In this document: piece by piece, positions 32,814-49,114 of the stretch | Position numbering within the stretch: the stretch's first letter is position 1 | How the letters are laid out: every line of letters begins with the position of its first letter | Source of the DNA: Nitrospirae bacterium MYbinv3 | Lineage (GTDB): Bacteria > Nitrospirota > Thermodesulfovibrionia > Thermodesulfovibrionales > Magnetobacteriaceae | DNA length: 59,081 bases | Reading direction: 5' to 3' | Assembly (NCBI GenBank): GCA_002753395.1 | Contig: PEAB01000013.1 | Span: forward strand, 1-59,081 | Position numbers and translations under genes: made by a program | Notes under the pieces: generated by a model | The model's database searches: none | Seen by the model: the letters and a program-made list of their open reading frames with translations, nothing else | What the model was told of the DNA's origin: nothing

Positions 32814-33296
32814 TCATTGCCCATCTTGCCCGTGATGGTGCAGGAGGGGTTTGAGCAGATCCATTGTCATGTCGTCAAACCGCATGACCTTACCGCCGTA
32901 CTGTTTAACGTGCTTTTCTGCATCATTGCGGTCTGAGAAAGGGACCAGAGGGTCTCCCATCGCTCCCTTTTTTTCTCCACCGTAGGCGTAGAAGGCGCTC
33001 TTGGCGTCTATCCAGTGTCCAGTGGGGCGTTGCCAGTCTTCCTTGGCCATGTCATTTACGTATATGGCAGCAATATTTTTAGGGCTGTCTGGCTGTAGAT
33101 AAAAGGAAAACATATCAAGCGTCCCACAGAACAGATCATACTTGCCGTTTGTGTACATGATCTGCCCCTTAGCGCCAGGGAAGTCTAAGAGGATCATCCT
33201 GCACACGCTGCAAAAGTGCTCTCGTGTCAAATTCACTGGCTCCGTCTTTGGCTCCGTCACCTTTGAGCATCCCACAAGCAACAAGCAGCACACCAT
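32814..33296 (-). CDS. nosL: NosL copper-chaperone lipoprotein
   Basis: Outer-face lipoprotein that binds Cu(I) and supports CuZ assembly of N2O reductase. It has a lipobox LLLVGC, then REHFCSVCRMILLDFPGAKGQIMY with the Cys/Met metal motif (C-x-x-C-R-M) and YDLFCGTLDMFSFYL. It ends KVMRFDDMTMDLL, all typical of NosL. The ATG at 33296 gives a signal of only nine residues before the cysteine. A CTG or TTG 6 or 3 codons upstream would add an arginine, so the start is uncertain. The open frame runs on to 33443 through a GC-rich repeat. Last gene of the nos block, separated from the rest by repeats. Confidence 0.88.
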   Translation of the reverse strand: MVCCLLLVGCSKVTEPKTEPVNLTREHFCSVCRMILLDFPGAKGQIMYTNGKYDLFCGTLDMFSFYLQPDSPKNIAAIYVNDMAKEDWQRPTGHWIDAKSAFYAYGGEKKGAMGDPLVPFSDRNDAEKHVKQYGGKVMRFDDMTMDLLKPLLHHHGQDGQ

Positions 33297-33313
33297 AAGC
33301 AACCTCGCCAGGA

Positions 33314-33378
33314 AGAAGGGGGCGACTCCGTCCCCCCTTAGCCCCCCCTGCAAGGTGGCCAGCCCCCTTGACCCCTTA
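33314..33378 (-). repeat. GC-rich dispersed repeat at the nosL 5' end
   Basis: Inverted copy directly before nosL, in frame with it. It separates nosL from the upstream genes and may carry its mRNA start. Confidence 0.75.
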
Positions 33379-33607
33379 ATTGTCAATCCTGCACCGTGAT
33401 TCGTAATCCTAATTTCATAAGTACTATTTTTTAATACCCTCAAAGTTTCATTTCCTCATATATTTTTTTCAATTAAGGCCTCAACCTCGGAATCTCTTCT
33501 TTGAGCACATGGCAAACGAACTTGAAATTTACCCCAAAGTTAAAATGATGCCTCACCAATTATCTCAACACATCTAACAACGGAATTCTGTCAATCTTTT
33601 GTTAAGG

Positions 33608-38350: not shown

Positions 38351-39082
38351 CTACTTCTTTGAAAACGTGTGGTCAAGTTCAGCAGCCGCACCGCCCTTAA
38401 CCTCAACGTCTTTAGTCACCTCACCAAAGCCTTCATGCCAGATTTTTACCTTGTACTTGCCAGGTAATAGATCCTTTATCTCGAAATTCCCCTTATCGTC
38501 CGTAACAGCTACATAAGGGTGTTTGGAGGCATAGACGTATCCTCTCATCCATGAGTGGGCGTCACACTGTACAATCTGCATACCGGCCACTTTAATTGGT
38601 TTTTCAATGACCTGATCCTTGTTTGGAAGGGCCAGATTGTACACAGTCCTTCTTTTGCCTTCGCCTAACATTATACCCAATGATGTGTTATGAAATATGG
38701 GGTCTTCATTCTTGATAATGTACTTCTGACCAACATATGCAACACCTACCAAAGGTTCAAACACGCACTTCTTGTTGTTGATTACCAAGTCGGTCTTGGG
38801 CACAGCCTTACCCTTTTCTACATCTTCAACGGCAACTATTACATTCTTAACACCCATATCAGAAGAAATCAAATACTTTTCGGCCTTCACTGACTTTCCA
38901 CAGGCAGCCTCGTCCTTAGCAATAGTTAGAGTCTCATCCGGCACCGCTGATGATGCCTTTATCTTGCCTTTGATACTTCCCCCGCCCTTAACATCTTCCA
39001 CCTTGTAATCCTTAACTTCTGCGAACAATGCTGCCGGGATCAACATTGCAAGGACTACCACACTTAAAACGATCCTTCTCAT
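38351..39082 (-). CDS. Carboxypeptidase-regulatory-like (methylamine-utilisation-type) periplasmic protein
   Basis: A 243-aa secreted protein with a signal peptide ending ALFA (about residue 21). It has a cupredoxin-like beta domain with a cysteine in ACGKSVKAEKYLI and a His in IFHNTSLGIML. QIVQCDAHSWMRGYVYASKHPYVAVTDD and GNFEIKDLLPGKYKVKIWHEGFGEV form the carboxypeptidase-regulatory-like fold. It is paralogous to the first two thirds of the DUF1573 fusion at 40745. The CDAHSWM motif, with Cys/His/Met, is suggestive of copper binding. It lies between the TlpA-like and CydA-like genes, so it probably serves periplasmic metal or electron traffic; exact role unknown. Confidence 0.78.
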   Translation of the reverse strand: MRRIVLSVVVLAMLIPAALFAEVKDYKVEDVKGGGSIKGKIKASSAVPDETLTIAKDEAACGKSVKAEKYLISSDMGVKNVIVAVEDVEKGKAVPKTDLVINNKKCVFEPLVGVAYVGQKYIIKNEDPIFHNTSLGIMLGEGKRRTVYNLALPNKDQVIEKPIKVAGMQIVQCDAHSWMRGYVYASKHPYVAVTDDKGNFEIKDLLPGKYKVKIWHEGFGEVTKDVEVKGGAAAELDHTFSKK

Positions 39083-39191: not shown

Positions 39192-39713
39192 TCATTTAAT
39201 TGATATGTCTGTAATATGGTCGTGAAGCTCTTTTTCATGTATGTAGTGACCAACAATACTTTTTACTACCCCTTGTGCATCTATAAAGACTAAAACCGGC
39301 ACGTAGTTTATCTTGTACGCCTTAAGGACATCCTGCCGATTGCCTGCAAACATTGGAAACACAAAGCCAAGTTCCTTTTTATATGCCTTTACCAACTTGC
39401 CGTCCTTCGCCATAATGTTAATGCCAATGATACGTAAGTTCTTGCTTCCGAACTTCGTCTCTGCCCTCTTTAAAAGGGCTATTATCTGTGTACAGTAGTG
39501 ACAGGCGTTGTGTGTAAAATAGATAATGGTCGGTTTATCTATCAATGTCTTTAAGTCTACCTCTTTATTGTTTTCATCAACCATAACAAATGTTGGCGCA
39601 GGTTCGCCCTCCTTAACAGATGCCACTGCTTTGCCTGATGTCAGTGTCGTAAGAAACGAAGTCAATAATAACGTAAGAAGTGTCCTCAATGCAATAGCTA
39701 ATACTCCATTCAA
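39192..39713 (-). CDS. TlpA-family thiol-disulfide oxidoreductase
   Basis: A 173-aa secreted thioredoxin-fold protein: signal peptide (about 1-30), active site HNACHYCTQ (C-x-x-C) and the cis-proline loop NYVPVLVFIDAQG. Such proteins reduce apocytochrome c cysteines or copper-site cysteines in the periplasm. Its start overlaps the transglutaminase-like gene by 4 nt, linking it to the candidate selenoprotein gene above. That position makes it a plausible electron donor to the U-x-x-C or heme-site thiols (inference). Confidence 0.87.
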   Translation of the reverse strand: MNGVLAIALRTLLTLLLTSFLTTLTSGKAVASVKEGEPAPTFVMVDENNKEVDLKTLIDKPTIIYFTHNACHYCTQIIALLKRAETKFGSKNLRIIGINIMAKDGKLVKAYKKELGFVFPMFAGNRQDVLKAYKINYVPVLVFIDAQGVVKSIVGHYIHEKELHDHITDISIK

Positions 39714-40741
39714 TTCTGTCCCTCCATCTTTACGATCTCATATTGTATGAAGTTCTTGTAGTTATGTCCATAAATCAATGGAATACCATCTGCCTCAACG
39801 TTTGTGTAGGCAAAGGTATTGAGTATCTCTTTCTGAGGCGGTTCAAGCGTCAGCCCTCTACCGGTGGACATCCGAATCCTGTTTGGAACAAGATTACCGA
39901 AGTAAAACTCCTTCAGGTCGGGCCGTCGTTTGGCCTCCGATAAGTCCACAGGCACCCAGCGGTTACCCCCGGCATGAAACATGAGCCAGCTATGGGCGTT
40001 TATACAGTCTGCCTCAATCCGACCCGACTTTTTCATCTCAGAGGGGTAGGGCAGGATAGTGCCCTGCTGCCACTTAACGGGGATACCTTTGTACATCAGC
40101 ATCGACCGGTACAAAGCATGAAAATCGTCGCTCCGGCCAGACTTCTCCTCAAACGCAAGGGTGCTAACCCCTCTGGTACATATCTTGTGCATGTACGTCG
40201 TGCGTTCTACGATCCCATCATAGAGCTTTCTCGCTATGACAGCCGGTTCCGTAACCTTACCCACCGTGGTGTCAACGTACTGCGTGATACCGTTATCCCA
40301 CTTCTCCCACTCTGAAGGCGTCAGATGCTGTTGGGGATCCTCATCCTTTAGCTCTACGGTTCCTATGTTTGTCCTCTTTATTGTGTAACGCAGGGTTAGC
40401 TTCTCTCCTTTATTGATGTTTTTGGTCTTGATATAAAAGACCTTGTTTTGCTTCTGGTCATACTCTTTTGAGGGCTTCCGATATGGCAGTTTTGTCTCTA
40501 TCTTAAGATCGGTTATCTCCTGTTCCATGTCGCTTGGCGGTATAGGCAGCCATATATCAATTTCCTCGTCCTTGGGGCAGCGTAAAAACTCCGTAGTATA
40601 CGTTATCTTCAACGTAATGGACTTCACCTGCGCATCATTTAAACCAGCATCAGAAGAGACCCTTTCGCCAGCTAAAAGAAAGCCGGCTCCGGCCAGGCTG
40701 CCCATCAGAAACTCTCGTCTGCTTAAATTAAATTCAGACAT
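39710..40741 (-). CDS. Transglutaminase-like domain protein with Ser in place of catalytic Cys
   Basis: A 343-aa protein exported by the Tat route or anchored (LSRREFLMGSLAGAGFLLAG, twin Arg at 8-9). It has a beta-sandwich-like region and a transglutaminase-like (cysteine-protease fold) core. The core usually reads G-x-C-x-D-x-A at the nucleophile, but here it is SGRSDDFHALYRSM with Ser204. The His (AHSWLMFHA, His250) and Asp (WVPVDLSEA, Asp266) of the triad are kept. It may be a non-catalytic binding protein or use serine. It starts 3 nt after the extended DUF1573 frame and overlaps the TlpA-like gene. Confidence 0.8.
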   Translation of the reverse strand: MSEFNLSRREFLMGSLAGAGFLLAGERVSSDAGLNDAQVKSITLKITYTTEFLRCPKDEEIDIWLPIPPSDMEQEITDLKIETKLPYRKPSKEYDQKQNKVFYIKTKNINKGEKLTLRYTIKRTNIGTVELKDEDPQQHLTPSEWEKWDNGITQYVDTTVGKVTEPAVIARKLYDGIVERTTYMHKICTRGVSTLAFEEKSGRSDDFHALYRSMLMYKGIPVKWQQGTILPYPSEMKKSGRIEADCINAHSWLMFHAGGNRWVPVDLSEAKRRPDLKEFYFGNLVPNRIRMSTGRGLTLEPPQKEILNTFAYTNVEADGIPLIYGHNYKNFIQYEIVKMEGQN

Positions 40742-40744
40742 GTT

Positions 40745-41896
40745 TCACTTCCCTTTATTACCCGGCTCAACAACTACTCCATGTACCACCAGGTTTGTCA
40801 TGGCTTTATCAGGGTCGTTTGTCCATACCTCAACACCCTTTTGAGTCTTACCTGGCTCTTCATCGCTCTTATAAGTTACGGTAACGAAACCACTCTGTCC
40901 TGGCTCTATCTCCACCGAACTGGCAGAGGCACTCGTGCAGCGCCTTCAGGAGGGTATTACATCCTTTATAATGAGTTTACCGCTACCACTATTAACAAAC
41001 TCAAATCTATGACTAAGAACCTTTCCTTGCTCTATAGAGCCAAAGTTATGACTAGTCTCCTTGAACTCTATCTTTGACGAACCATTCTTCACATCCTGAG
41101 ATGCTTTGTTTTCTGTAATTTTGCCCTTTTCAGAAAAGTCTATCTCCACGGTCTTTGTCTGTCCAGACGTAGTCTTAATAGTCGTTTCAACCAATCCAAG
41201 CCCCTCATGCCATGCCTTTATGACATACTCTCCTGCGGGCAGCCCGCTTAACTCAAATTCTCCATTATCATCCGTCACCACTGCATAGGGTTGGTCGAAA
41301 ACGAAGACGTAACCACGCATCCAGTCGTGTGAGTTGCTCTTTACGGTTATGAACCCTGTCTCCTTGCTGTGCTTGTGAGAGTCCTTTATGGGCTTTTTAA
41401 CCTCTGCTCCCTTGTTTGGAAGCGCTATGTTTAATATGGTTGTGCCATCTGTCAACGGTCTGGCAGAGAGCTTTTTTTGATACTGAAGGCCGAGCTTCAA
41501 CTGGATGGTGTGAAGGAGCGGGTCATCGTTTTTAAAATCATACTCTCCGCCAACAAAGCCAACGGCAACCAGAGGTTCAACCTTACATTTTCTGATTGTG
41601 ATCTCCACTAGCGTCTTTGGCAGCGACTTGCCGCGTTTTACGTTCTCAATCCACACCACGGTGTTTTTCACCCTCGAGTCGGTTATCAAGAACTTCTCAC
41701 CCTGCAGGGTCTTCCCACATGTCTCCTCATCCCTGCTGACGCTCACAACGGTATCCTGAGGCGCTGTGCCAGAGAACTTCACCACGCCCTTGACAGACGA
41801 GGCATCTTTGACATCCACCACATCGTATGCAGACGCCGCTGTTATGTACAGAAACGTGCATACAAGTGCTAAAACCAAACCAACAAACCTATTCAC
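40745..41896 (-). CDS. Candidate selenoprotein: carboxypeptidase-regulatory + DUF1573 domains with in-frame TGA
   Basis: Read through one TGA (40948-40946), this is a 383-aa secreted protein. It has a signal peptide (1-23), a cupredoxin/carboxypeptidase-regulatory region paralogous to the 38351 protein (about 25-255), and a DUF1573 domain (about 275-380). That domain begins ETSHNFGSIEQGKVLSHRFEF and ends VEVWTNDPDKAMTNLVVHGVVV. In DUF1573 the strand LIIKDV-x-x-S is normally followed by a C-G-C motif. Here it reads IPS-[TGA]-RRCTSAS, so the TGA takes the place of a cysteine in a U-x-x-C context. The same frame then codes the rest of the domain and stops 3 nt before the next gene. A SECIS-like hairpin follows. 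If TGA is a stop, the protein is truncated at residue 316 and 200 nt remain unused. Selenocysteine is an inference; no selA/B/C lies in the window. Confidence 0.7.
40910..40928 (-). promoter_or_regulatory. SECIS-like hairpin downstream of the TGA
   Basis: On the mRNA, CUCUGCC-AGUUC-GGUGGAG forms a 7-bp stem (two G-U pairs) with a 5-nt loop. The loop begins 25 nt after the UGA, within the 16-37 nt window of the bacterial SECIS consensus, and has G at loop position 2 followed by U. This is the pattern expected for SelB recognition. Sequence-based only. Confidence 0.55.
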
Positions 41897-42054: not shown

Positions 42055-42900
42055 TTATTCTAAATATCGTTTCTTAAAGAAGTAGTAACTTGACATCAAG
42101 GGTATGACTATCCAAAGCAGACAAATACCCCATAGCACTGGTGCTTTGATAAAGGAGGGCAGGTCTACTGAGGACATCCCTAAGAAGATCATATATTTAC
42201 CGATAGTAAGGAAGTTTATTATACGGTATACGTCTACAGGGTTTAACATCAGAAGGAACGAGAATATCTTTGGGCTTAGTATGCCTTTAGTAACAACGAG
42301 CACTCCAACAAGTCCCATGTCATACAATATCGTAAAAAACAACCATAGAAAGATTGTAAAGGCTATTACCTTGCTTCTTTCGTAAAAGACAACCGATACC
42401 AAAAACGAGATGCTCAAGAAGATAATGCCTAGTATTACAGAGTTCACTACGAATATCAGAAAGCTACCTGCTGAGCCAAGCCCCGTTTTAGCAACAAGCA
42501 CGATACCGGAGAGGCCAAACCCGAATACCGCAGGCAGGGTTAGTGCAATAGCCAGCCCTATGAACTTACCTGTGATAAACTCAGTAACTGATATGGGTGA
42601 GGCCAGGTAAAACTCAAGATTATGCCTGTCGCGCTCATCTGCAATTACCCCGCCGCCAAGTGTCAGGGCCAGGAGAGGGATAAAGTAGATGACCAGGGAC
42701 GTCAGACTGGCAATCGTGGCCTCCATGTTTCTGAAGCTGGCAACCCCAGAGGTAGCCGTCCCAAAGTACGCTATAATTATAGTAAACAGGGCAAACCCTA
42801 CGGTAATCACCCCAACCCACTTGCTCTTGAGCTTATCGGAGACCTCCTTGTGGGCAATGGCCTTCATGGCGTCAGTGAATACCAAAAAACACCTCCTCAA
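42055..42900 (-). CDS. nosY: NosY-type ABC transporter permease
   Basis: Inner-membrane permease of the NosDFY system needed to supply sulfur or copper for the CuZ centre of N2O reductase. The 281-aa protein has six hydrophobic helices (for example VGVITVGFALFTIIIAYFG, LVIYFIPLLALTLGGGVI). It also carries the ABC-2 feature ADERDRHNLEFYLASPISVTEFITGKFIG, which contacts the ATPase. It overlaps nosF by 29 nt, an unusually long overlap. The likely alternative start MKAIAHKEVSDKLKSK (12 codons in) would put the overlap at 8 to -8 nt. Confidence 0.9.
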   Translation of the reverse strand: MRRCFLVFTDAMKAIAHKEVSDKLKSKWVGVITVGFALFTIIIAYFGTATSGVASFRNMEATIASLTSLVIYFIPLLALTLGGGVIADERDRHNLEFYLASPISVTEFITGKFIGLAIALTLPAVFGFGLSGIVLVAKTGLGSAGSFLIFVVNSVILGIIFLSISFLVSVVFYERSKVIAFTIFLWLFFTILYDMGLVGVLVVTKGILSPKIFSFLLMLNPVDVYRIINFLTIGKYMIFLGMSSVDLPSFIKAPVLWGICLLWIVIPLMSSYYFFKKRYLE

Positions 42901-43768
42901 GGTTTGGCTCTCTTACAGAGAAATCAACAAACAGGTTTTTATGTTCTAAGATAGAGGACAGAACCTTAAACTTATGCTCTCTGGGCAGATCAGCCATGAG
43001 ATGTCCATTGCTGCACGTAATGTCGACAGCGCCATCTCTCTTAAGTATCTCCTCAAGTCTGACGTCCTTATCTTTAATCGTTATATACAATTTAAGCGGA
43101 AGGTTTAGACCTTCATATAACTCATCCAGTGTCCCGCACGCCTTTAAAACACCACTCTTCATCACGCCCACGCGTGTAACTTTTTCCTCTATCTCGGCCA
43201 GTATGTGGGAAGACAGAACCACGGTCAATGGTCTTTTCTGCCTGACGTTGTCAATGATATCGTAGAGTTCCCGAGTACCGATGGGGTCAAGCCCCGATGT
43301 AGGCTCATCTAAGATCAACAACGAGGGTGTGTTTAAGAGGGCCTGGGCAAGGTTTAATCTCTGTCTCATGCCCTTGGAGTATCCTCCGACCCGTCTGTCC
43401 AGGACGCCGCGGGTTAGGAGCTTGTCCAAGATATCCGAGATGTTGTTGACACTGCCTCCCTTGATGCGGGCAAACAGCGTTAGCGTCTCACTCCCCGTAA
43501 GGTTGTCGTAGAAGGATATCCGCTCTGGCATAAATCCAATCGTCTTTCTAAATGACTGCCAGCCTTTTTCAGACAGTCTCTCTCCATTGACTAGGAGTTC
43601 GCCGGCTGTGGGTCTTATGATACCAAGCATTATCTTTAGAAGCGTCGACTTACCAGAGCCGTTGGGACCAACAAGACCAAACATCTCACCGACCTTCAAC
43701 TCAAAAGACACAGAGTCAACCGCCTTGACGTCTGCATAGTTCTTAGATACCTGTTGAAACTTTAGCAT
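42872..43768 (-). CDS. nosF: NosF-type ABC transporter ATP-binding protein
   Basis: Cytoplasmic ATPase powering NosDFY. The 298-aa protein carries Walker A GPNGSGKSTLLKIML, Q-loop region GFMPERISFYDNLTG, the signature YSKGMRQRLNLAQALL, Walker B LLILDEPTSGLDP and the switch His in VLSSHILAE. The C-terminal 80 residues form the extra domain typical of NosF-like ATPases. It sits directly between the polyferredoxin-NosD fusion (1-nt overlap) and nosY. Confidence 0.94.
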   Translation of the reverse strand: MLKFQQVSKNYADVKAVDSVSFELKVGEMFGLVGPNGSGKSTLLKIMLGIIRPTAGELLVNGERLSEKGWQSFRKTIGFMPERISFYDNLTGSETLTLFARIKGGSVNNISDILDKLLTRGVLDRRVGGYSKGMRQRLNLAQALLNTPSLLILDEPTSGLDPIGTRELYDIIDNVRQKRPLTVVLSSHILAEIEEKVTRVGVMKSGVLKACGTLDELYEGLNLPLKLYITIKDKDVRLEEILKRDGAVDITCSNGHLMADLPREHKFKVLSSILEHKNLFVDFSVREPNLEEVFFGIH

Positions 43769-46065
43769 CAGTACATCCCTCCTGGCATGTTGGCAAGTTT
43801 CTCTACGTCGCCGTAGTATTTTGCTGGAACATAGTTGGCATACTTATCGAGCAGCTCTTTCCACTGGGCATGAAACGGCAGCATCGAGGGCTTGCTGTCG
43901 ATCACCTTTGGCACGTTGATGATGGGAAACTGCTTTTCCAACATCTTCAGGACATGCAAGGACGGGCTTGCAAACAGGAGCTTTGCCATCGGATACCTCC
44001 AGAAGATGTGATCCACGACCGTGTTTGACTCATACGGTACGTCCCCCTTGCCGGTGCCGGAGAGGTCCCAGCCCAGGTAATCGCTCCAGTAGTTGTTGTC
44101 CCACTCCTGGTTTCTTGACGACACGTATTTTACCTGTACCTCGTTTCTGATAAACGAGTTCTTACTAATACGATTATCCTCCGAGCCGCCCCAATTATGC
44201 AGCCCCATGTTGTTGTTCATGATCAGGTTTGACTCTATCGTGTTTTCTATCGAGTTGTATAAGAACATCCCTTTTGTATTGCTGATAACTGTGTTACCTA
44301 TGATTTCACTATGCACAGTCTGGTTTATGAGTAGACCGTGGGTCTTGTTACCAACGGAGAGATTTCGGTTAATCCTGGAGTTTTTCGTGTACATAATCGC
44401 CATCCCGACGAGGTTACCCAATACCACGTTGTCATTAAAATTACCGTTGTCTACCCACATCGTGTGGATTGCGTAACGGCTTTTTGTGATATGATTATCC
44501 TCAACGGTTGCGTTGTGGCATACCTCAAGGTACATTGCATCGCGGCAGTTGCTAAAGGTGTTGCCTTTGATGTAAGCCTTAAACGTACCCGTGAAGGACA
44601 TACAGTTACCCCTGTTGTTTTCGTCAAATTTTTCAATGCCGCTTATCGTGTTGTTGATAATCCTTATGTTGATTCCCTCAAGGTTGCGGATACCAAACAT
44701 GGTGTTTACCAGCTTGTTGTTTTTAATCACCACGTCGTCGGCATACTTTGCTATAGCGATTGCCGTGTCATCGGGATCATGTCCGGCGCCGTCATACGTC
44801 AGTGTAAATCCCTCAAGTGTCACACCGGGGCTGGTTATAACGACAAGATGGCCTTTTTTTGCAAAGATGGCAGGGTTGTTTATACCCTTTAGGTTTAGCT
44901 CCTTATCGATTTTTATGTGTTCCTCGTATCTCCCGCCACGCACCTCTATAGTGTCGCCGTCCTTAGAGTCCTTGATGGCCGCTGATATGGTAGTATATCC
45001 GCCTGGTGTCTTATCGTCTACTATAAGTGTCTTTGACAGCGTTTTTGCTGAGGCCGTAGCACAGATCAATAAAACAGCCAACATCGCCAGGGCAGACGTC
45101 ACAGTCATGTTTGTCAGGTCAGGTTTGGTCTCGTTCACAACCTCTGCCCTTTTCTCTTTGCTGTGCTTTATCAGGGCAGGACATCGAGCCTCATCCCTGT
45201 AATTTACCTGGCAGTCCAGACAATACAAGCAGCTGCGCGCATCAATGGCACCCTCAGCTGTTATGGCACCGGCCATACAGTCTTTATAACATATCTTGCA
45301 CTTTGAGCAGAGCGCATACCTCTTGAGCTTTATCAGCGGCAGCCATCTCAAAAACGACACTGAAGATAACCCCGCACCCAATGGACACAGATACTGACAG
45401 AACGACCTGTACAGGAGCGTCGAACCAATCGTTAGGAACACAAAGTAGGCAACAAAATACCACTGCCTGTTGAGCTTTAACACAAAGGTCCTAAATGGCT
45501 CAACCTCTGTAAGGTACTCAGAAAGTATAAAGTTGTAAAACGAAATGCCTATGATAATAAAGAGAACGAAATAGCGCACATTCAGGAGTCTTCCATGTAT
45601 CCTTTGGGAGAGTCTAAACAGTGGTTTTGAGCGCACTGCCTTGACAATCCCATTTAACAGCTCTACCATAGCGCCGTAGGGACACAGCCAGCCACAGAAC
45701 ACCCCCCTTCCCCACAGTACAACGCTCAGACCTATGAAAAGGAACGTGAAAAACAGAAACGGCTCCATCAGGAAGGTCTCAATGGGGAACTGATGTTCCG
45801 TCAAGAGGCTGTTGATGGGGATAACAAGGTTTGCGGTAGTGGGCTGGGCCTTAAGCGCCAACCCTATGTATATAAAGGCTGTCAGCAAGAAACCATAACG
45901 CACGACACTGAGAAGTTTTGCCTTTTTAGACAGTCTGTCTTTGGCAAACATGACGATTGTCAGCGCCAAAAGAAACAATACAAAGGCGGCGATGTGATAG
46001 ATCTTTTGCCGCCATATCATTAGCCAAATGGCGTCCTCGCCAAATAAATCGCCTAGATGCTCCAC
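43768..46065 (-). CDS. nosD: Fused polyferredoxin (NapH/NosR C-terminal type) - NosD protein
   Basis: A 765-aa fusion. Residues 1-240 form a multi-helix membrane domain with two C-x3-CP motifs, CGWLCP (Cys124, Cys128) and CQYLCP (Cys223, Cys227). Two [4Fe-4S] ferredoxin motifs follow (Cys253/256/259/263 and Cys279/282/285/295). This is the NapH/NosH/NosR C-terminal module. After another membrane helix (about 318-340) comes a full NosD: a right-handed beta-helix with many parallel N-x-I-x-x-N repeats (about 345-765), the periplasmic part of NosDFY. Separate nosD and ferredoxin genes are usual. The fusion ties cytoplasmic-side electron input to the maturation machinery. Confidence 0.9.
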   Translation of the reverse strand: MEHLGDLFGEDAIWLMIWRQKIYHIAAFVLFLLALTIVMFAKDRLSKKAKLLSVVRYGFLLTAFIYIGLALKAQPTTANLVIPINSLLTEHQFPIETFLMEPFLFFTFLFIGLSVVLWGRGVFCGWLCPYGAMVELLNGIVKAVRSKPLFRLSQRIHGRLLNVRYFVLFIIIGISFYNFILSEYLTEVEPFRTFVLKLNRQWYFVAYFVFLTIGSTLLYRSFCQYLCPLGAGLSSVSFLRWLPLIKLKRYALCSKCKICYKDCMAGAITAEGAIDARSCLYCLDCQVNYRDEARCPALIKHSKEKRAEVVNETKPDLTNMTVTSALAMLAVLLICATASAKTLSKTLIVDDKTPGGYTTISAAIKDSKDGDTIEVRGGRYEEHIKIDKELNLKGINNPAIFAKKGHLVVITSPGVTLEGFTLTYDGAGHDPDDTAIAIAKYADDVVIKNNKLVNTMFGIRNLEGINIRIINNTISGIEKFDENNRGNCMSFTGTFKAYIKGNTFSNCRDAMYLEVCHNATVEDNHITKSRYAIHTMWVDNGNFNDNVVLGNLVGMAIMYTKNSRINRNLSVGNKTHGLLINQTVHSEIIGNTVISNTKGMFLYNSIENTIESNLIMNNNMGLHNWGGSEDNRISKNSFIRNEVQVKYVSSRNQEWDNNYWSDYLGWDLSGTGKGDVPYESNTVVDHIFWRYPMAKLLFASPSLHVLKMLEKQFPIINVPKVIDSKPSMLPFHAQWKELLDKYANYVPAKYYGDVEKLANMPGGMY

Positions 46066-46068
46066 TTA

Positions 46069-47145
46069 CTACTCTAAAAACCTGTCTGGCAGTTTATACT
46101 CAACCCCAGATGTCTTAAATTTCTTCTCTGTACCCACCCTATAGGGTAACATTAGCTTGAGTTTAAAGGGGTTTGATGGCTCAAATTCCTTGCCTCTGAT
46201 GATAAACACCCCGCCCTCCTTTGGCTTAGGCGCTCCTTTAGCTGCAACCTCAGTCAATATCCTGTAATCCTTATCTGTAAAGTTAAAGACCCGCGCCTCC
46301 TGTTCAATGCTGAATCTTTCAAAGACACCGCCACGGGCAAACCCAGATCCCTTAAACGAACCAGCGCCCATGGAAAATATGAAGACAGGCGTCTCACCTG
46401 GTTTAAGAGCTTCCATTATTTCATTGTAAAACCGCTCGCCCAATACGTTCTTGCCTATCGAGGGGGGGGACACTAGACCAATGTACAGGTCAAGATACGC
46501 CTCCTTGCCTTCTAAAGCAAGCTCTTCAGAGGTAATCAAGATATTTTTTACCGCCCCTGCATCAACAAGATCCTTCCAGTTGAGGATGTCAGACTTACTG
46601 CTGATCTTACGTACCTTGTCTTGCGTGTGTTTGGTCATACCAGCGATGCCGGCTACCTTCTTTGCGCTCTCGGTGATTATAGCGTGCTGCACAGCAGCCG
46701 TAACAGTAGCGCCAGTGATGGCGTCCATCTTTATTTCATTGCCAAAGGTCAGCCCTTTGATAGCATTTTTTCCTGTGTATTGTTTTAGGTATTCCTGATA
46801 GTTATCTTCTTTAAGACCTATGAGTACAATAGGTTCTGAGTGAAAGAGCAGCTTAACACCGGTGATATTACCGCTGGTATCTATACCGATGAGGGTCTCC
46901 ATGTGTTTACCGGAGTAACCAACGTGCCTTTCAGTCCAATCTTTAGATAAAAAAACATACCCTATAATCTTAACGCCTGCATAGGCTTCCCAGTAGCGTT
47001 CTTTTTGTGCAAACTTCTCAGCCTTCATTACGTCTTCTAATTTATACTCGTATCTGTGTTCAAAATACTTTGACTGAGCGGCATACAACGTAGATGACGT
47101 AAAAACCATTATAATATATAAACACAACAAAATTGTTCTTTGCAT
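46069..47145 (-). CDS. NosR-like FMN-binding periplasmic protein lacking the ferredoxin half
   Basis: A 358-aa secreted protein; the ATG at 47145 is preceded by TAGGAG, and the residues encoded up to 47247 look spurious. A signal peptide ending LYAA is followed by an FMN-binding domain: MDAITGATVTAA carries the S/T-GAT flavinylation motif (Thr147 likely). The rest (KDYRILTEVAAKGAPKPKEGGVFIIRGKEFEPSNPF) matches the periplasmic C-terminal part of the NosR N-terminal half. It lacks NosR's membrane helices and [4Fe-4S] centres, which here are fused to NosD next door. Should relay electrons to NosZ or its maturation system. Needs ApbE for FMN attachment, not in the window. Confidence 0.86.
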   Translation of the reverse strand: MQRTILLCLYIIMVFTSSTLYAAQSKYFEHRYEYKLEDVMKAEKFAQKERYWEAYAGVKIIGYVFLSKDWTERHVGYSGKHMETLIGIDTSGNITGVKLLFHSEPIVLIGLKEDNYQEYLKQYTGKNAIKGLTFGNEIKMDAITGATVTAAVQHAIITESAKKVAGIAGMTKHTQDKVRKISSKSDILNWKDLVDAGAVKNILITSEELALEGKEAYLDLYIGLVSPPSIGKNVLGERFYNEIMEALKPGETPVFIFSMGAGSFKGSGFARGGVFERFSIEQEARVFNFTDKDYRILTEVAAKGAPKPKEGGVFIIRGKEFEPSNPFKLKLMLPYRVGTEKKFKTSGVEYKLPDRFLE

Positions 47146-47266
47146 GACTCTCCTATATTTGTTCCTCTTCTGGTTCATTATACACGAAGACTTATACCAG
47201 ATTGTGTTCAGAGAGATAGTACCAGGATGGATGCACCCTGGTACCATAATCTCTTAGCTCTATCCT

Positions 47267-49114
47267 TTATGCCTTTTCGACGATAATCCTCATCCTCATC
47301 TCAAGGTGCAGGGCGTGACAGAAGTTTGTGCAGTATGCCCAGTATACGCCAGGCTTATCGGCGGTGAACGTCACTGACTTAGTCTGAAACGGGGCTACAA
47401 CAAAGTTGATGTTGTAGTTTGACAGGGCAAAACCATGTCCAAGGTCTGATATCTCGTCGTTATTTGTCACAATGACGGTAACCTCATCACCCTTTTTGAC
47501 CTTGACCTCCTGCAATCCAAAAACAGGTGCATTGGCGGTGAGTTTAACGGTTACCTTTTTGCCTTTTCTCTCTACACCGCTTCGCGTAACGGCCAGCGGG
47601 TGCTCAAACATATTGAATCTGTCCTTGACGTGCTTCTCAATGATATCCCTTCTGACTATTATACAGTCATGGGGTTCTATATATTGAGCTGAGTCGTGTA
47701 TGATCTTGAGCTTATCACCTGAGATGTCAACAAGCTGTTCACACTCGTTTTTCAACGGTCCTACGTTTATAAATCTATCCTTAGCGAACTTGTTTAGAGA
47801 CACAAGCCACTTGCCGTCGGCCTCTTTGGTCTCCGCCATTGTTGCCATTATATGTCCAACCTGATAGGTTATATCCAGGACATCTACGATGTGTTCGTTT
47901 TTCTTCTTTTCTTCTGCGCCCTTTTTCTCGGCGTCTATTGCCTTTTGTATGTTCCACTTGACGTTGGTGCTGTCTATAAAGACCGAGGTAATGGCGTTAC
48001 CCCTTCCGTCAAACGTGGTATGTAGCGGACCAAGGCCGATATAAGGCTGGGCTACGATGCAGTCTTTGGGTTTGATCTTCCCGCTATAGACCTCATCCAG
48101 TTTGTCTATTGCCACAACAGTACAGTTAGGGGATACCTTGCCGGAGCAGACTGCGTACTTGCCGTCAGGAGAGATATTTATTCCATGCGGGTTTTTAGCC
48201 ACTGGGATCCTAACGACTATATCGGACTTGCCCTCACGTCCATCGATCATCTTAACGCCTTCAATGACCTTAAACTTGCCTTCCTTGAGGGCCTTTCTGA
48301 TCCTGTCCCAGTTAAACACCAACATGTAATCAAAATCCGAGGCCAGCATCTCTGATACAGTAACGCCCTTTTCTATGTTGTACGACGTGGTCATCGAATA
48401 CTTGCCGCCGTAATCAGTAGCGGCCAGGTCCATGTTCTCATCTACCATCACCTGGCAAACGATCTCCATCTTCTCGGCATCTATGATTGTGTGGCAGCCG
48501 TAATACTTATCTTGGGGCACATCAGACGGATTGTTTGGTACAGGGATCTGAAACTCACTGTTACAGACAAGCCACTCGGTCTTAGGATACCGTTGCGTAA
48601 ACAACCCGTGCATACCTTGTATGTTTGGCACATCGAGGATCTTGTCCACCTCCATGTACTCTACCCTTATGCGGGCTACCCTGTTGTTTAACTTGTCGTT
48701 TACAAACAGATATTTACCGTCATAAACGCCATCCTTGTACGAACCATGCACATGATGTGTATCGCCGCAGAACCTCCCTTTGAGCAGGGCCTTGCTCTCG
48801 TTGGTTATACCCCAGCCGGATCCAACGTCCATGTTAAAGACGGGTATCCTCTTGAGTTCTCTCATTGAGGGAACACCAAGAATTCTGACCTCGCCAGAGT
48901 GCCCGCCACTCCAGAAACCATAGTAGGCATCGAGTTCACCGGGCTTCACCTCTGCGCTCTGGTGCCCGTTGCCTTTGGTCTCAGCCTGAGCTACGGCAGT
49001 TCCTAAGACCTTATCCTTATCGTTAATGGTCTTATCGAGCATCACAACACCTGCTCCTGCTGCAACTCCGGCCATTCCTATATATTTAAGAAAATCTCTT
49101 CTATCAAACGACAT
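47267..49114 (-). CDS. nosZ: Nitrous oxide reductase NosZ
   Basis: Terminal enzyme of denitrification: N2O + 2e- + 2H+ to N2 + H2O, a periplasmic homodimer with CuA and CuZ centres. The 615-aa protein begins with a twin-arginine signal (DRRDFLKYIG, 4-13). The seven-bladed propeller follows with FWSGGHSGEVRI and DTHHVHGSY (His119-123 region, CuZ ligands). The C-terminal cupredoxin domain ends in CTNFCHALHLEM (Cys595, Cys599, His603, Met606), the CuA set. Genes for a diheme cytochrome, FMN protein, NosD fusion, NosF and NosY surround it. This set lacks a full-length NosR and resembles clade II clusters, though Tat export is more typical of clade I. Confidence 0.97.
   Translation of the reverse strand: MSFDRRDFLKYIGMAGVAAGAGVVMLDKTINDKDKVLGTAVAQAETKGNGHQSAEVKPGELDAYYGFWSGGHSGEVRILGVPSMRELKRIPVFNMDVGSGWGITNESKALLKGRFCGDTHHVHGSYKDGVYDGKYLFVNDKLNNRVARIRVEYMEVDKILDVPNIQGMHGLFTQRYPKTEWLVCNSEFQIPVPNNPSDVPQDKYYGCHTIIDAEKMEIVCQVMVDENMDLAATDYGGKYSMTTSYNIEKGVTVSEMLASDFDYMLVFNWDRIRKALKEGKFKVIEGVKMIDGREGKSDIVVRIPVAKNPHGINISPDGKYAVCSGKVSPNCTVVAIDKLDEVYSGKIKPKDCIVAQPYIGLGPLHTTFDGRGNAITSVFIDSTNVKWNIQKAIDAEKKGAEEKKKNEHIVDVLDITYQVGHIMATMAETKEADGKWLVSLNKFAKDRFINVGPLKNECEQLVDISGDKLKIIHDSAQYIEPHDCIIVRRDIIEKHVKDRFNMFEHPLAVTRSGVERKGKKVTVKLTANAPVFGLQEVKVKKGDEVTVIVTNNDEISDLGHGFALSNYNINFVVAPFQTKSVTFTADKPGVYWAYCTNFCHALHLEMRMRIIVEKA

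Follow-up and report, generated by a model that had tools for sequence, protein, structure and literature searches.

The gene at positions 40745-41896 (minus strand) of the window, by which we mean the whole 59,081-nucleotide stretch of Nitrospirae bacterium MYbinv3 DNA analyzed here, contains an in-frame TGA that, on comparative evidence, almost certainly encodes selenocysteine (Sec). The gene belongs to a nitrous-oxide reductase (nos) cluster, and its product ends in a DUF1573 domain that would carry the Sec in a U-x-x-C motif. The full statement, that this is an exported Sec protein with a role in maturing or protecting the copper centers of the nitrous-oxide reductase NosZ, is one toward which we lean with moderate confidence.

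The gene and its DUF1573 domain

The features of the gene are as follows:

40745-41896, minus strand: complete predicted selenoprotein gene (GTG start at 41896, TGA for Sec317 at 40948-40946, stop TGA at 40747-40745)
40946-40948, minus strand: in-frame TGA as putative selenocysteine, in the motif U-R-R-C-T (same codon in 20 orthologues; the family column is Cys or Sec)
40910-40928, minus strand: candidate SECIS-like hairpin with a 7-bp stem and an AGUUC loop (pairing in 95.7% of cells across 20 sequences, versus 37-49% in sliding controls)
40772-41077, minus strand: DUF1573 domain with the U-x-x-C motif and a predicted Ig/HYDIN/PapD-like fold (PF07610, 81.8 bits; domain search, structure model and Foldseek)

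A GGAGG lies upstream of the GTG start, and the frame 41896-40748 has only one internal TGA, at codon 317, which is followed by 66 sense codons and then by a stop TGA located 3 nt ahead of the next gene's ATG (40741). The read-through product is 383 residues long. Its signal-like N-terminus is followed by a beta-rich region that matches CarboxypepD_reg and then by DUF1573, which is complete: residues 276-375 match positions 1-98 of the 98 in the PF07610 profile (gathering cut-off 26.1 bits). Its nearest named relative, at 65% identity, is found in Ca. Magnetobacterium casense (Nitrospirota). The preliminary description of this DNA had the start, the TGA, the 66 codons and the distance to the next gene all correct. 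It had also claimed that the 66 codons supply the missing second half of DUF1573, which is borne out by the match to all 98 profile positions when the TGA is read as a residue, and that the TGA occupies the column where the family's C-G-C motif has its first Cys, which is so, with a spacing one residue longer (U-R-R-C-T versus C-G-C-T). Gene finders that take TGA as a stop truncate such genes, and half of a functional domain is lost.

A structure model of the protein was of intermediate quality overall (mean pLDDT 72.7, pTM 0.53), with the DUF1573 part mostly at 71-93. The model predicts an Ig/HYDIN/PapD-like fold for this part, and its Foldseek matches include an uncharacterized Porphyromonas protein (2qsv) and human HYDIN (2e6j). 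Strands 308-315 and 321-325 are joined by a turn on which the U-x-x-C motif is placed, with both Sec317 and Cys320 at this turn. A sequence search of solved structures retrieved nothing useful.

Evidence for selenocysteine at the TGA

All 20 orthologues, from 17 Nitrospirota genomes and three Aquificaceae MAGs, have the TGA at this codon, within the motif P-x-U-x-x-C-T. Full-length relatives come from nine genomes of the order, and each has the TGA at this codon. When the Ca. Magnetobacterium casense gene is compared with that of the window, substitutions at codon positions 1, 2 and 3 number 7, 12 and 26 over the 61 codons after the TGA and 16, 17 and 30 over the 60 codons before it, i.e., the coding pattern after the TGA is at least as constrained as that before it. 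Because the same TGA recurs in 20 orthologues and the coding pattern continues beyond it, the internal TGA is not there by chance.

When 176 genomes of the order were searched with the domain alignment, 86 yielded DUF1573 matches, 105 in all; 103 of these contain a TGA, the position of which was checked in the fetched loci only. Among the fetched unique domains, the Sec column holds U in 69 and Cys in 22, and a single divergent paralogue has Ser there; sorted by motif, the fetched genes comprise 17 with U-x-x-C, six with U-x-x-A/S (second domains), 46 with UGC (one of them UGG), and 22 with Cys. Among 396 genomes sampled across the phylum, non-TGA forms occur in families f22, f23, f24, and f28, and TGA forms in f25 and most of the order. 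Judging from these alignments, the exchange of Sec and Cys takes place across the wider DUF1573 family, outside the U-x-x-C subgroup, and it is by way of that wider family that the gene shares with bacterial selenoproteins a UGA in frame at a column where Cys and Sec exchange. A search for Cys versions within the U-x-x-C subgroup itself, covering the order, the sampled phylum, the relatives of the Aquificaceae MAGs, and plasmids, found none.

Numbered from the UGA, alignment columns 21-27 and 33-39 pair to form the stem of the downstream hairpin. In the 20 U-x-x-C genes, 95.7% of cells are paired, as against 37-49% with slid partners; the same stem is paired in 86.0% of cells in 43 distinct UGC genes, where 56 cells changed on both sides versus 22.4 in shuffles, and pairing at these positions is 35% in Cys genes. 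The loop is AGUUC or nearly so in both Sec groups; in most Sec genes it encodes Ser-Ser (AGU UCN), and of the 22 Cys genes only 4 have it. The fold of the single window sequence is not significant (z -0.72). The host's own selD has a different loop from which AGUUC is absent, so this loop is not universal in the host genome. By comparison across genes, the conserved hairpin is best taken as a SECIS-like element directly 3' of the UGA, as bacterial selenoproteins have. The four Cys genes that do have AGUUC (L105, L106, L109, and L110) all belong to family f28 and come from genomes without SelA, and their loop may be the fossil SECIS of a lost Sec.

The host has the machinery of bacterial selenoprotein synthesis, namely SelA (597.6 bits), SelB (378.8 bits), SelD (315.8 bits), and a tRNA-Sec (75.5 bits; anticodon tca by ARAGORN), and its selD itself carries an N-terminal TGA. 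Across genomes, SelA was detected in 26 of the 30 that have the TGA form and in 6 of the 22 whose forms lack TGA (Fisher p=2.7e-5, a value that ignores kinship and, the genomes being related, overstates their independence). A tRNA-Sec is present in three TGA genomes in which SelA was not found and in a fourth that has just a fragment of SelA. Ca. Magnetobacterium casense (G001; L003 / L145) is the exception, with no SelA, SelB or tRNA-Sec found in its assembly. One missing assembly region could explain this gap, since the complete genome G010 has selA, selB, and tRNA-Sec within some 116 kb of each other. In Ca. Magnetobacterium casense, the TGA gene and its hairpin are intact despite the absence of sel genes from the assembly.

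We propose that the UGA is decoded by SelB and tRNA-Sec, aided by the hairpin. UGA read-through with other residues happens elsewhere, and the Ca. Magnetobacterium casense assembly would suit near-cognate decoding of this kind, by which Trp, Arg or a similar residue would be inserted. Nevertheless, the alternative residue in homologues is Cys and never Trp or Arg, the TGA form tracks SelA across genomes, the hairpin is conserved with compensatory changes, and only TGA, never TAG or TAA, is seen at the Sec codon; we therefore consider near-cognate decoding very improbable. Still less credible is a genuine stop, whether in a pseudogene, through a sequencing error or in a functional truncated protein: TGA is an ordinary stop in the host genome, where it closes 14 of the window's 39 long open frames, including that of the selenoprotein gene itself, but this one is conserved over two phyla, with coding constraint past it and a DUF1573 domain that is complete only if it is read through. 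The conservation of the TGA and the constraint after it rule out a pseudogene, frameshift or sequencing error, and the many open frames that TGA terminates in the window rule out an alternative genetic code.

The preliminary description had set the gene apart from a pseudogene and put the TGA forward as a candidate Sec codon, naming as checks Cys/TGA alternation at the motif column, the presence of selA, selB, selC, and selD in the host, and a bacterial SECIS prediction. Its distinction from a pseudogene stands, and all three checks favor Sec: alternation is found across the wider family (apart from the divergent Ser paralogue), all four genes are present, and, by comparison, the downstream hairpin keeps its pairing in Sec genes and loses it in Cys genes.

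Relationship to known DUF1573 selenoproteins

DUF1573 with a UGC motif appears in two published selenoprotein tables (PMC9312934, PMC13188914) and in NCBIfam as the OS_HP2 family (seleno)protein (NF041425). These entries contradict the preliminary description, which knew of no DUF1573 selenoprotein family, and rule out a new selenoprotein family. The window protein and OS_HP2 share the Pfam domain PF07610 and the column of the Sec, and UGC homologues in Nitrospirota have a similar downstream hairpin with the AGUUC loop. In contrast, the motif of the window protein (U-R-R-C) has one residue more than UGC, and its score against NF041425 is 57.7 bits, below the 100-bit cut-off, under which a UGC homologue (L020) also falls with 86.1. 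The U-x-x-C form further differs from OS_HP2 in often being fused to other periplasmic domains or doubled, and in being found only in nos clusters. As far as we found, the U-x-x-C motif with its extra residue, the fusions, the double-Sec forms, and the restriction to nos clusters are new.

Among the 20 U-x-x-C genes, eight are fused like the window gene, six have a second DUF1573 domain with its own in-frame TGA, three are fused to SCO1/SenC (two of these three were scored against Pfam), and three, all from Aquificaceae, stand alone. In the two-TGA proteins (L148, L149, and L152-L155), the first DUF1573 domain has U-x-x-C, and the second has U-x-x-A/S or a shortened U-x-x-S without the resolving Cys.

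The nos cluster and a possible role

The neighboring genes of the window that bear on function are as follows:

47267-49114, minus strand: nosZ, TAT-dependent nitrous-oxide reductase (TIGR04244, 812.6 bits, cut-off 625)
46069-47247, minus strand: NosR N-terminal half, FMN-binding
43768-46065, minus strand: NosR C-terminal half fused to NosD (TIGR04247, 355 bits; NF046105 positions 389-679)
42872-43768, minus strand: NosF-like ABC ATPase (PF00005 and cluster position)
42055-42900, minus strand: NosY-like ABC permease (PF12679 and cluster position)
39710-40741, minus strand: transglutaminase-like protein, the next gene (PF01841; strict co-occurrence with the U-x-x-C DUF1573 gene)
39192-39713, minus strand: TlpA/ResA-like periplasmic thioredoxin (PF00578, 64.9 bits; ResA-like)
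38351-39082, minus strand: paralogue of the selenoprotein's N-terminal half, without DUF1573 (42% identity over query 7-257; CarboxypepD_reg)
32814-33443, minus strand: NosL copper chaperone (PF05573, 152.7 bits)

The cluster thus runs from nosZ through the nosR halves, nosD, nosF, and nosY to the selenoprotein gene, followed by the transglutaminase-like, TlpA-like and paralogue genes, and continues with a cytochrome bd-like gene, cytochromes, and nosL. All 20 U-x-x-C genes reside in nos clusters; nos genes flank them in all loci examined, in Nitrospirota and Aquificaceae, with the same gene order. In the set tested, a close homologue of the transglutaminase-like protein was found in 17 of 17 U-x-x-C genomes versus 0 of 15 others. 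In two genomes (G004 and G014), the gene for the N-terminal part is still found beside the paralogue, and DUF1573, transglutaminase, and TlpA are together absent there. As G004 has nos genes upstream of this locus, the DUF1573 domain is not essential for every nos cluster.

The three Aquificaceae MAGs (L158-L160) have the same cluster with a standalone U-x-x-C gene, and SelA was detected in two of the three. Only 4 of 112 genomes of their order were matched, three of the four with the TGA, which suggests that the cluster has been transferred.

We envisage a protein of two parts that is exported and that would present the Sec/Cys pair of its C-terminal DUF1573 domain on a beta-hairpin turn, as a periplasmic redox or Cu(I)-handling site. 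Its partners would be the neighboring TlpA-like thioredoxin (or the fused SCO1) and the transglutaminase-like protein, and its target the maturation or protection of the copper centers of NosZ from the same cluster. A role in NosZ maturation is proposed because SCO-type proteins act in CuA assembly, some U-x-x-C domains are fused to SCO1, and a TlpA-like gene is adjacent. SenC and PCuAC are cited for CuA of cytochrome oxidase, and NosL is the copper chaperone for CuZ of N2O reductase (PMC6530538). In three genomes this cluster contains a fusion of the same U-x-x-C DUF1573 domain with SCO1/SenC (PF02630), which has a thioredoxin fold; the window protein itself lacks SCO1. NosL shares the cluster and the proposed pathway of the selenoprotein but belongs to an unrelated family, has no Sec, and is a separate gene in the window. 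Titles and abstracts, in a search outside which most subscription journals lay, yielded no literature linking nosZ or nitrous oxide reductase with a selenoprotein or selenocysteine, transglutaminase with nosZ and nosD, or DUF1573 with copper.

If Sec is granted, gene context and fusion make a NosZ role about an even proposition, perhaps slightly better. The main competing view, that of a general periplasmic redox or peroxide-defense Sec protein carried along in the nos cluster without acting on NosZ copper sites, has a real but smaller chance of being correct. We know of no function for DUF1573, and standalone UGC DUF1573 selenoproteins are widespread in the order, in genomes without a U-x-x-C gene, both of which suit a general function; on the other hand, every U-x-x-C gene found sits in a nos cluster of conserved order, and the SCO1 fusions also speak against it. 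More broadly, N2O respiration in Nitrospirota and some Aquificaceae might use a dedicated periplasmic Sec factor, with U-x-x-C and in some cases two Sec residues, that loads or protects the NosZ copper centers, a suggestion we make tentatively and hold a little short of even. If it is true, nitrous oxide removal would be tied to selenium supply. A NosZ role, if the gene context has been read correctly, would provide one form of this uncharacterized domain with a function that can be tested, and would link selenium and copper with the enzyme behind the removal of the strong greenhouse gas N2O.

In the transglutaminase-like protein of the window, the motif GRCDEFHAL reads GRSDDFHAL, with Ser at the presumed catalytic Cys. 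Two other Magnetobacteriaceae copies (L057 and L058) have the same Ser, and the nos-cluster homologues elsewhere retain the Cys.
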